The notes under the pieces: model-generated
What the model saw: the letters and a program-made list of their open reading frames with translations, nothing else
The model's database searches: none
Told to the model about the DNA's origin: nothing
Position numbers and translations under genes: made by a program
In this document: one piece after another, positions 25,642 to 28,447 of the stretch
How the letters are laid out: every line of letters starts with the position of its first letter
How positions within the stretch are numbered: position 1 is the stretch's first letter
Assembly (NCBI RefSeq): GCF_001476815.1
Contig: NZ_LDSL01000001.1
Location: 1 to 32,252, forward strand
Origin: Pseudacidovorax intermedius
Lineage (GTDB): Bacteria > Pseudomonadota > Gammaproteobacteria > Burkholderiales > Burkholderiaceae_C
Reading direction: 5' to 3'
DNA length: 32,252 nt

Positions 25642-26757
25642 TCAGCCGCGCCGTTTCTTGACGGCCTGCGACAGCACATCGAGCAGGTTGCGCGAATCGT
25701 CCCAGCCCAGGCAGGCGTCGGTGATGCTCTGGCCGTACGCCAGCGCCGAGGGCTGGTCCTTGCCCGGCGAGAACTTCTGCGCGCCGGCCTGGAGATGGCT
25801 TTCCACCATCACGCCGAAGACCTTGCGGCTGCCGCCGGCGATCTGGTCGGCGATGTCGCGCGCCACGTCGACCTGCTTCTGGTGCTGCTTGCTGCTGTTG
25901 GCATGGCTGCAGTCCACCATCAGCGTGGGCGGCAGGCCGGCCGCCTCCAGGTCGCGGCAGGCGGCCTCGACGCTGGCGGCGTCGTAGTTGGGCGCCTTGC
26001 CGCCGCGCAGGATCACGTGGCAGTCCTTGTTGCCGTTGGTCTGCACGATGGCGACCTGGCCGTTCTTGTGCACCGACAGGAAGTGGTGGCCGCGCGCCGC
26101 CGCCTGGATGGCGTCGGTGGCGATGCGGATGTTGCCGTCGGTGCCGTTCTTGAAGCCGATGGGCGCCGACAGGCCCGAGGCCAGCTCGCGGTGCACCTGG
26201 CTCTCGGTGGTGCGCGCACCGATGGCGCCCCAGGCGATCAGGTCGCCGATGTACTGCGGCGAGATCACGTCCAGGAACTCGCTGCCCGCCGGAAGGCCCA
26301 GGCGGTTGATGTCGATCAGGAGCTGGCGCGCGATGCGCAGGCCCTCGTCGATGCGGTAGCTCTCGTCCAGGTACGGGTCGTTGATCAGCCCCTTCCAGCC
26401 GACGGTGGTGCGCGGCTTCTCGAAGTACACGCGCATCACGATCTCCAGCGAGTCGGCGTACTTGTCGCGCTCGGCCTTGAGGCGGCGGGCGTAGTCCAGG
26501 GCCGCGGCCGGGTCGTGGATGGAGCAGGGGCCCATCACCACCAGCAGCCGGTCGTCCGTGCCGGCCATGATGTTGTGGATGGCGTGGCGGGTGCCGGTGA
26601 TCAGCTTCTCGACGGCCGTGCCGTGGATGGGGAAGAAGCGGATGAGGTGTTCCGGAGGGGGCAGCACGTTGATGTCCTTGATGCGTTCGTCGTCGGTCTG
26701 GCTGGTTTTCTCGACGGGCGCATACCAGGGGTTGGCGTTGGCGTTGCTGCTGTTCAT
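25642..26757 (-). CDS. aroG: 3-deoxy-7-phosphoheptulonate synthase, class I (DAHP synthase)
   Basis: First enzyme of the shikimate pathway, condensing PEP and erythrose-4-phosphate. 371 residues, the class I (AroF/G/H) type. Visible motifs: 'VVMGPCSIHDPAAALDYARRL', 'IVMRVYFEKPRTTVGWKGLINDP', 'SEFLDVISPQYIGDLIAWGAIGARTTESQVHRELASG', 'PIGFKNGTDGNI' and 'VDCSHANSSK'. The Cys, His and Glu metal ligands of the family can be placed in these motifs. The ATG at 26757 has AGAGGA about ten bases before it; the longer frame to 26832 runs into the terminator stem. The name aroG is generic here, since the effector (Phe, Tyr or Trp) cannot be read. Upstream lie a terminator hairpin, an aromatic-rich leader peptide and a promoter, so attenuation is likely. 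Confidence 0.95.
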   Translation of the reverse strand: MNSSNANANPWYAPVEKTSQTDDERIKDINVLPPPEHLIRFFPIHGTAVEKLITGTRHAIHNIMAGTDDRLLVVMGPCSIHDPAAALDYARRLKAERDKYADSLEIVMRVYFEKPRTTVGWKGLINDPYLDESYRIDEGLRIARQLLIDINRLGLPAGSEFLDVISPQYIGDLIAWGAIGARTTESQVHRELASGLSAPIGFKNGTDGNIRIATDAIQAAARGHHFLSVHKNGQVAIVQTNGNKDCHVILRGGKAPNYDAASVEAACRDLEAAGLPPTLMVDCSHANSSKQHQKQVDVARDIADQIAGGSRKVFGVMVESHLQAGAQKFSPGKDQPSALAYGQSITDACLGWDDSRNLLDVLSQAVKKRRG

Positions 26758-26805: not shown

Positions 26806-26842
26806 AAAAAAAAACCGCCGGGCTTGAGGCACCGGCGGTTTT
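26806..26842 (-). terminator. Intrinsic terminator in the aroG leader (candidate attenuator)
   Basis: On the minus strand, AAAACCGCCGG, a 10-base loop and CCGGCGG run into T9 (stem 26815-26821 / 26832-26838; T-run 26814-26806). It lies 48 bases before the aroG ATG and 20 bases after the stop of the leader ORF. It may double as the end of tldD transcription. Its 5' arm can pair instead with CCGGCGG inside the leader ORF (26888-26882), which would prevent the terminator from forming. Confidence 0.9.
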
Positions 26843-26862
26843 GAGGGGTTGGGTTGTTGCGT

Positions 26863-26937
26863 TTACGCGCGCGCCTCTCGTCCGCCGGAATCCGGGAACC
26901 AAAAGTAGGCAAAGAAATAAGCGCGTTGGGCGAACAT
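26863..26937 (-). CDS. Aromatic-rich leader peptide of aroG (24 aa)
   Basis: The ORF ATG(26937)-TAA(26863) encodes 24 residues. Codons 7-14 read YFFAYFWF: seven of eight are aromatic, and Phe, Tyr and Trp are all present; one more Phe is at position 2. The ORF starts about two bases after the predicted transcription start and ends 20 bases before the terminator. Codons 17-19 (TCC GGC GGA) contain the segment that can pair with the terminator 5' arm, about 13 bases after the last Phe codon of the run. This is the layout of trp/phe-type attenuators. Caution: the core TTTCTTTGCCTACTTTT also resembles a dispersed motif that I recall from other proteobacterial intergenic regions. Confidence 0.7.
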   Translation of the reverse strand: MFAQRAYFFAYFWFPDSGGREARA

Positions 26938-26945
26938 GGAGCGCG

Positions 26946-26973
26946 ACTCTAGCACGTAAAAACGGGCTGCCAA
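26946..26973 (-). promoter_or_regulatory. Promoter of the aroG leader transcript
   Basis: Minus strand: TTGGCA (26973-26968), a 16-base spacer, TAGAGT (26951-26946). Start predicted at about 26939, two bases before the leader ATG. It lies just past the tldD stop codon. Confidence 0.65.
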
Positions 26974-26986
26974 GCTGTGTTTATGC

Positions 26987-28447
26987 TCAGGCCGTGCCGC
27001 CGACGGTGAGGCGGTCGATGCGCAGCGTGGGCTGGCCCACGCCCACGGGCACGCTCTGGCCTTCCTTGCCGCAGGTGCCGACGCCGGTGTCCAGCTTCAT
27101 GTCGTTGCCGATCATGCTCACGCGCGTCAGCGCGTCCGGGCCGTTGCCGACGATGGTGGCGCCCTTGACGGGGTAGAGCAGCTTGCCCTTCTCCACCCAC
27201 CAGGCCTCGCTCGCCGAGAAGACGAACTTGCCGCTGGTGATGTCGACCTGGCCGCCGCCGAAGTTGATGGCGTACAGGCCCTTGTCGATGCTGGCGACGA
27301 TCTCGTCCGGGTGGCGATCGCCGCCCAGCATGTAGGTGTTGGTCATGCGCGGCATGGGCAAGTGCGCATAGCTCTCGCGCCGGCCGTTGCCGGTGGGCGC
27401 CACGCCCATCAGGCGGGCGTTGAGCGAATCCTGGATGTAGCCCTTGAGGATGCCGTCCTCGATCAGCACGTTGCGCTGGCTGGGGTTGCCCTCGTCGTCC
27501 ACGTTGAGCGAGCCACGGCGGTCGGCGATGGTACCGTCGTCCAGCACCGTCACGCCCTTGGCCGCCACGCGCTGGCCGATGCGGCCGCTGAAGGCGCTGG
27601 AACCCTTGCGGTTGAAGTCGCCTTCCAGGCCGTGGCCGACGGCCTCGTGCAGCAGGATGCCGGGCCAGCCGGGGCCGAGCACCACGGTCATCTCGCCGGC
27701 GGGGGCCGGGCGCGATTCGAGGTTGGTCAGGGCCGAATTGACGGCATGGTCCACGTACTCGGCGATCTGCTCGTCGCCGAAATAGCCCAGGCCGAAGCGG
27801 CCGCCGCCGCCGCCGGAGCCGATCTCGCGCCGGCCGTTCTGCTCGGCGATGACGGTGACCGACAGGCGCACCAGCGGCCGGACGTCGGCGGCCAGGGTGC
27901 CGTCGGCACGGGCCACCAGCACCACGTCGTATTCGCTCGCCAGGCCCGCCATGACCTGCGCCACGCGCGGATCGCGGCTGCGGGCCAGCTTCTCGACCTT
28001 CTCGAGCAGGGCCACCTTCGCCGTGCTGTCCAGCGTGGCGATGGGATCGATGCCGCCGTAGAGCTGGCGGCTGCCCGCCACCTTGCGCGCGGGTGCCTTG
28101 ACGCGGCCCGACTTGCCGGCCGTGGCGATGGCGCGCACGGTGCGGGCGGCGTCGAGCAGCGAGGCTTCGGAGATGTCGTCGGAATAGGCGAAGGCGGTCT
28201 TCTCGCCGCTCACGGCCCGCACGCCCACGCCCTGGTCGATGGAGAAGCTGCCCGTCTTGACGATGCCTTCCTCCAGGCTCCAGCCCTCGGCGCGGGTGTA
28301 CTGGAAGTACAGGTCCGCGTCGTCCACCTTGTGGGCGCGGATCTCGGCCAGGGCCTTCGCCAGGTGCGTCTCGTCGAGCCCGAAGGGCGTGAGCAGAAGC
28401 TGCTGCGCCGTGGCCAGGCGCTCGATGGTGGGTTCGCGGGAGATCAT
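26987..28447 (-). CDS. tldD: Metalloprotease TldD
   Basis: Zinc protease that acts with PmbA (TldE) to degrade unfolded peptides, mature some microcins and turn over CcdA. 486 residues, the usual length. The HExxxH zinc motif is HEAVGH at 267-272, followed by 'GLEGDFNRKG'. The late cysteine ligand is Cys459 in 'GVGTCGKEGQ'. A glycine-rich stretch 'GSGGGGGRFGLGYFGDE' lies at about 210-225. AATAAT six bases before the ATG and no Shine-Dalgarno suggest a leaderless start. rodA is 111 bases upstream on the same strand, and the aroG leader begins right after the stop. PmbA is not in the window. Confidence 0.95.
   Translation of the reverse strand: MISREPTIERLATAQQLLLTPFGLDETHLAKALAEIRAHKVDDADLYFQYTRAEGWSLEEGIVKTGSFSIDQGVGVRAVSGEKTAFAYSDDISEASLLDAARTVRAIATAGKSGRVKAPARKVAGSRQLYGGIDPIATLDSTAKVALLEKVEKLARSRDPRVAQVMAGLASEYDVVLVARADGTLAADVRPLVRLSVTVIAEQNGRREIGSGGGGGRFGLGYFGDEQIAEYVDHAVNSALTNLESRPAPAGEMTVVLGPGWPGILLHEAVGHGLEGDFNRKGSSAFSGRIGQRVAAKGVTVLDDGTIADRRGSLNVDDEGNPSQRNVLIEDGILKGYIQDSLNARLMGVAPTGNGRRESYAHLPMPRMTNTYMLGGDRHPDEIVASIDKGLYAINFGGGQVDITSGKFVFSASEAWWVEKGKLLYPVKGATIVGNGPDALTRVSMIGNDMKLDTGVGTCGKEGQSVPVGVGQPTLRIDRLTVGGTA

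Follow-up and report, generated by a model that had tools for sequence, protein, structure and literature searches.

A leader region ahead of aroG

The window, by which we mean the whole stretch of Pseudacidovorax intermedius DNA that was analyzed (32,252 nucleotides), carries on its minus strand, in order, the gene tldD (26987-28447, recognized by NF008006), an extended -10 promoter, an ORF of 24 codons, a GC-rich hairpin with a T9 tract, and aroG (25642..26757). The product of aroG, which we propose as the regulated gene, is a class I DAHP synthase of 371 aa that scores above the cut-off of TIGR00034 (aroFGH), matches PF00793, and is the single DAHP synthase match in the source genome at E ≤ 0.001. 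A coordinate check places the aroG ATG at 26757 and agrees throughout with the positions that a first-pass annotation of this DNA had given for the leader, the terminator, and the aroG start. By aroG, the closest named relative is an uncultured Pseudacidovorax (98%), whose leader is MFAQRAYYFAYFWFPDSGGREARA.

The putative leader promoter (26946..26973, minus strand) begins 13 nt past the tldD stop codon with the -35-like hexamer TTGGCA (26973-26968), followed by a 16-nt spacer and the extended -10 TGC TAGAGT, of which TAGAGT occupies 26951-26946. It lies exactly where the first-pass annotation had put it, and it is the only site that the promoter scan returned, with 0.2 expected by shuffling. 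Upstream of the leader ATG, an extended -10 (TGnTAnnnT) is found in 122 of 130 relatives and in none of 1040 background windows, which by sequence is a clear promoter feature across the family. The -10 ends 8 nt upstream of the leader ATG in the window and 6–9 nt ahead of it in 118/130 relatives, which puts the expected transcription start a few bases from the ATG at most. The leader mRNA is thus probably nearly leaderless, and a start at or near the ATG would allow little space for a Shine-Dalgarno site.

The leader ORF, MFAQRAYFFAYFWFPDSGGREARA, comprises 24 codons plus TAA (26863..26937, minus strand), with its ATG at 26937 and the TAA ending at 26863. Within it lies the aromatic run YFFAYFWF (26896..26919, minus strand), which we propose as the site of ribosome stalling. 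The leader peptide matches no Pfam or NCBIfam family.

Conservation of the leader peptide

To describe the leader across the family we used 131 upstream regions from a family search in which 197 of 200 genomes have an aroG homologue, and we accepted ORFs of 8–45 aa with at least five aromatic residues in nine and a start 147–257 nt before the gene match. An aromatic leader ORF precedes aroG in 130 of these 131 loci; the ORF and run described in the first-pass annotation are therefore both present by coordinate and conserved upstream of aroG. An exact search for the peptide pattern YFFAYFW matched only 2 of 100 relative genomes, one of them the window's own. We rejected this as a sign of absence, because the pattern is too strict and the ORF is found in 130/131 loci.

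When the 130 leaders are aligned on an anchor position, W, which is aromatic in all of them by construction, aromatic residues occupy W-2 in 93%, W-1 in 95%, and W+1 in 92%, and then only 4% at W+2. The anchor itself is Trp in 121/130, and within the run Phe is the most frequent residue. Clades differ in how F, Y, and W are ordered (YFFAYFWF, FYFYFWF, FYFWFFI, FFFFFYF), and some leaders from other families have no Trp, for instance FFFGFFLPLAEG. Among 80 named loci a looser rule (at least four aromatic residues in nine) finds an aromatic leader in 76, one of which (L259) looks doubtful. The four loci without a leader are L231, which has only 22 nt upstream, L269, L271, and L275. L269 is on chromosome 2 of Cupriavidus necator, and L271 and L275 come from two Polynucleobacter; other Polynucleobacter loci (L252, L264) have the leader. 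The absence in L269, L271, and L275 may be read as loss or replacement of this control.

Downstream of the run, it appears to be the RNA rather than the peptide that is conserved. Several leaders carry a frame shift or early stop right after the run (L020, SVPGG*; L074, SSKADERQLRAR; L022, SVLADER), and in these three loci GGCGG-NN-GAGAG is kept despite the altered frame; GGCGGNNGAGAG stays. The Ser codons that follow the run are of the TCN type in 102 cases among the listed codons at W+2, with no AGY among those listed. As proof of RNA pairing this codon choice is suggestive at most, because a change from TCN to AGY needs two substitutions.

A codon preference is also seen within the run. The Phe codon just before Trp (26902-26904 in the window) is TTT in 112 of the 121 leaders with Trp, and the aroG genes themselves (n = 28) use TTT 19 times and TTC 214 times, about eleven to one for TTC. 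The TTT before Trp could reflect either a preference for rare codons or one for U-rich, unstructured RNA.

Terminator and antiterminator pairing

The intrinsic terminator hairpin and its T9 tract span 26806..26842 on the minus strand, with the 3' arm at 26821-26815 and the T9 tract at 26814-26806, 48 bases ahead of the aroG ATG. The hairpin is seen in the fold of the window, and none of 200 shuffles of the stretch folds as well (z -3.1). A terminator scan of the window returned none, presumably because the scan's loop limit is 8. A hairpin of -12 kcal/mol or better stands behind the leader ORF in 130/130 relatives, compared with 4/130 after the same stretch is shuffled. A T-rich tail accompanies the hairpin in all 130, at a mean of -19 kcal/mol, confirming the strong terminator of the first-pass annotation.

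The sequence CCGGCGG in leader codons 17–19 (26888-26882) is identical to the terminator 3' arm (26821-26815) and has its pairing partner, CCGCCGG, in the 5' arm of the terminator. Directly behind CCGGCGG, GAGAGG can pair with CCUC or UCUCC immediately before the terminator arm, so the antiterminator probably extends beyond CCGGCGG. As we draw it, the 5' arm is CCGGCGG-ACGA-GAGG (26874..26888, minus strand) and the 3' arm, which overlaps the terminator 5' arm, is CCUC-AAAA-CCGCCGG (26832..26846, minus strand). That CCGGCGG might serve as an antiterminator was already proposed from the window's letters, and the pairing turns out to be conserved and to covary.

We measured covariation on an alignment of 99 rows (A2), fitted to a covariance model (R1, described below) without the antiterminator pairs. 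The antiterminator helix is paired in 90.8% of cells and has a covariation score of 0.101, against 0.065 when shuffled (0/500 shuffles reach it) and at most 0.041 for six slid versions; related sequences are not independent in such statistics. Of the 24 double-change cells, 20 come from a single pair, which is C-G in 49 rows, U-A in 20, U-G in 3, and unpaired in 25. Two further measures show no excess: further pair types number 7 versus 7.3 in shuffles (426/500 reach 7), and the count of pairs changed on both sides is 4, which one slid version (+3) exceeds with 5. The covariation expected of aroG leaders is thus present in the overall score, but it comes mostly from one pair.

The antiterminator core is nearly invariant, and its few changes are matched. 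Seven of 130 loci (L053, L066, L078, L108, L110, L111, L119) have CCGUCGG in the terminator arm; CCGACG appears in the leader of all seven and in none of the other 123, a count of loci rather than of independent events. Additionally, L101 has CCGGCGA in the leader with UCGCCGG. The leader-terminator duplex is also stronger than in synonymous recodings of the leader (mean z -1.1; in the best tenth at 41 of 107 loci). Comparison of the sequences therefore indicates an antiterminator pairing that covaries, mostly at one pair.

Predicted protector structures and ribosome position

Folding suggests two structures that could withhold the antiterminator arm. A local hairpin, UUCCCGG-AUU-CCGG-C-GGA (26881..26898, minus strand), can hide the arm, and a long-range stem may close around this hairpin through ACGCGC in codons 4–6 (26921..26926, minus strand) and GCGCGCG at the end of the leader ORF (26866..26872, minus strand), the exact partners of which vary. 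The stem between the first codons and the ORF end has at least three expected pairs in 98/130 relatives, with a mean of 6.2 expected pairs versus 4.1 when the partner is shuffled. The hairpin directly after the Trp codon, a predicted second protector, has at least four expected pairs in 117/130.

Masked folding of the window gives a probability of the antiterminator of 0.0 with nothing masked, 0.93 with the first codons masked, 0.42 with the local hairpin masked, and 1.0 with both. The protector that the first-pass annotation had proposed between ACGCGC and the end of the ORF thus holds up in the model, where masking raises the window from 0.0 to 0.93. The corresponding means over 120 relatives are 0.36, 0.69, 0.74, and 0.98. 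The stability of the local hairpin, which we considered as proof of a protector, was rejected as such, since it shows no excess over synonymous recodings (mean z +0.1; in the best tenth at 7 of 107 loci); in the window the hairpin is weaker than its recodings, at -5.9 against a mean of -9.5.

We then folded the leaders of 129 relatives up to the terminator 5' arm under an assumed ribosome mask that covers -18 to +12 relative to the A-site codon. With the A site at W-8 the antiterminator has a mean probability of 0.75; the mean climbs to 0.97–0.98 between W-2 and W before dropping to 0.72 at W+1, 0.31 at W+2, and 0.05 at W+3. The window behaves similarly, with 0.96–1.0 from W-6 to W, 0.43 at W+1, 0.01 at W+2, and 0.0 at W+3. 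With the ribosome at the stop codon the value is 0.42 in the window and 0.35 on average; without a ribosome it is 0.0 and 0.38, respectively. Because these two averages are intermediate, the default state is not clean in the model. Setting the footprint edge at +9 or +15 shifts the switch point about one codon either way among 61 relatives, or roughly one codon per 3 nt. Since the predicted probability falls just past Trp, where the aromatic codons end, the run would end about where stalling stops being useful, and the useful region upstream would be broad. With this assumed footprint, the calculation places the stall codons as an attenuator calls for.

Distribution and association with DAHP synthase

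A covariance model built from 66 leaders (R1) found matches in 63 of the 250 genomes searched from the order Burkholderiales, one place in each. We inspected all of these places: 61 of the 63 (30/30 and 31/33) are at a DAHP synthase, and they span 14 families. The motif is therefore not scattered beside unrelated genes; such scatter would have told against the first-pass annotation. The two exceptions, L193 and L195 (E 0.0036 and 0.006), have other ORFs next to them, and we dismissed them as chance matches. A broader model (R2) matched 71/250 genomes of the order, 61 of them at E < 1e-7 and ten weakly (E above 1e-4); five of the 61 strong-match genomes also have a weak second place. Among the weak R2 matches, L193 and L195 were those inspected, and both were rejected. 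The leader is found in Comamonas, Variovorax, Acidovorax, and Hydrogenophaga, among others.

A DAHP synthase homologue at E ≤ 1e-60 is present in 190 of the 250 genomes, against the 61 strong R2 matches; in the remaining genomes with a DAHP synthase the element is either lacking or too diverged. Searching the class with R2 matched 14 of 274 genomes, and the tie to a DAHP synthase was seen only in three genomes of the window's own family and two of another family, f63. In the latter two (L291, L292), which belong to the same class, the leader precedes a DAHP synthase of 61% identity. The leader also occurs, ahead of an aroG of 83% identity, on a contig named Solimonas sp. (L221). Solimonas is a gammaproteobacterium outside this order, and L221 would represent either transfer of the gene with its attenuator or a mis-assignment.

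Genomes with two DAHP synthases served as a control. In 12 such genomes the second copy is 54–59% identical, and 11 of the 12 have no aromatic ORF ahead of it; a lenient hairpin finder reports a candidate at three of the 12 paralogues (L279, L282, L290). The one paralogue with an upstream aromatic stretch, DWYPFCFFG, is L290, from genome G032, where the sole run of at least five Ts lies inside that ORF. This ORF might be there by chance, or might exert a control of its own.

A candidate attenuator and its inputs

The first-pass annotation had read this leader as an aromatic amino-acid attenuator, and conservation, specificity, covariation, and mask folding all support that reading. We consider it highly probable, from the sequence comparisons and the folding model, that the leader is a ribosome-mediated transcription attenuator of aroG that senses Phe, Tyr, and Trp, with the response to these amino acids being what we infer. 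RNA polymerase would start at or beside the leader AUG, with a ribosome translating the leader behind it. Under a shortage of charged Phe-, Tyr-, or Trp-tRNA, the ribosome would stall in the run, where it would hold the initial codons unpaired and, when close to Trp, also the 5' strand of the local hairpin. The freed CCGGCGG...GAGAGG would then pair with CCUC...CCGCCGG, the terminator would not form, and read-through into aroG would follow. When the amino acids are plentiful, the ribosome would pass Trp and either cover CCGGCGG or leave the arm in the protector structures; the terminator would then form, and transcription would stop about 50 nt ahead of aroG.

As to which of the amino acids dominates, we lean modestly toward a three-input sensor, in which codons for Phe, Tyr, and Trp lie together in a single run and the ribosome footprint sets where that run ends downstream. 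A shortage of any one would raise the attenuated DAHP synthase, and lineages would have adjusted how much each input counts by altering the residues in the run, to the point that leaders in some families have no Trp. The leaders without Trp, such as FFFGFFLPLAEG, and the prevalence of Phe in the run also fit a narrower possibility, which we take seriously while believing it less, that the same attenuator is effectively a Phe (or Phe/Tyr) sensor and that Trp shortage hardly matters in the cell. It has a precedent in the Corynebacterium aroR leader, which, according to a review, answers Phe limitation and not Tyr, though it has codons for both (PMC11802643). The Trp at the anchor in 121/130 leaders of the window's own family argues the other way, as it is the last codon for which the model predicts a fully effective stall.

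Two explanations do without sensing by charged tRNA. The leader could work mainly by means of a nascent arrest peptide, as TnaC does, rather than through uncharged tRNA; the conservation of the run at the peptide level and its sharp downstream edge are in keeping with this, but we think it improbable, given that clades arrange F, Y, and W in different orders and that the residues after the run differ and are sometimes removed by an early stop. We give still less credence to an ordinary tldD terminator with an unrelated aroG promoter downstream and an incidental ORF. The terminator does lie about 145 nt behind tldD on the same strand, yet the ORF, the extended -10, and the antiterminator pairing are conserved along with it, and covary.

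Relation to described systems

In Escherichia coli trpL and pheL, regulatory codons stand just before a 1:2 structure, with an alternative 2:3 antiterminator and 3:4 terminator. The leader described here likewise places its codons ahead of a predicted 1:2-type structure and has an alternative antiterminator and terminator; trpL and pheL differ in responding to one amino acid each and in controlling trpEDCBA and pheA. A single leader peptide coding for several end products is known from E. coli ilvGMEDA, whose leader has Ile, Val, and Leu codons and belongs to a different pathway.

The aroR-aroF attenuator of Corynebacterium glutamicum was reportedly described by Neshat et al. in 2014. It is described as having a Phe-Tyr-Phe leader peptide before a DAHP synthase gene and as acting by ribosome-mediated attenuation (PMC4046766, PMC7356990, PMC11802643), with transcription rising under Phe limitation and, in the review that reports this, without a Tyr response (PMC11802643). 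The two systems share an aromatic-codon leader peptide ahead of a DAHP synthase gene. By these descriptions, the actinobacterial leader has Phe-Tyr-Phe only, whereas the run of the window has Phe, Tyr, and Trp.

The uORFC-13-1 motif, a proposed uORF attenuator with a terminator before the Acholeplasma DAHP synthase gene aroF, is described with 24 representatives from Acholeplasma and environmental sequences and at least one Phe codon (PMC8632094). It resembles the present leader in having a candidate uORF and terminator ahead of a DAHP synthase gene; unlike the leader here, it has an RBS, and the section devoted to it gives a further paired substructure and names no antiterminator (PMC8632094). 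In Sinorhizobium meliloti, the trpL mRNA is reported to begin at the leader-peptide ATG (PMC7298713), much as the -10 position suggests for our leader; as presented there, trpL is a Trp leader of trpE(G) in an alphaproteobacterium. A 2005 table of predicted attenuators includes the gyrA-serC-pheA-tyrA-aroF cluster of Bordetella parapertussis, whose aroF, judging from the gene names used there, is not a DAHP synthase (PMC1173090).

In the part of the open full-text literature that we surveyed, we found no description of a DAHP synthase attenuator in Burkholderiales, although one may have been predicted earlier. The window has no match at gathering score to any Rfam family, the leader families Trp_leader and Phe_leader included; below that score, six other families appear at E 1.3 to 10.

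Significance

DAHP synthase controls how carbon enters all of the aromatic amino acids, and E. coli has three DAHP synthase isozymes under TyrR and TrpR. We regard the leader as very probably a real, conserved ribosome-mediated DAHP synthase attenuator of the classical kind, and as apparently new as a family; the part of most interest is the three-amino-acid input, which we infer. The RNA element has no match in Rfam, occurs in 14 of the order's families, and seems to have a single enzyme under its control. It offers a candidate RNA family, along with a testable example of attenuation by more than one amino acid, and more than 100 natural variants in which to measure how the identity and position of codons set the response.
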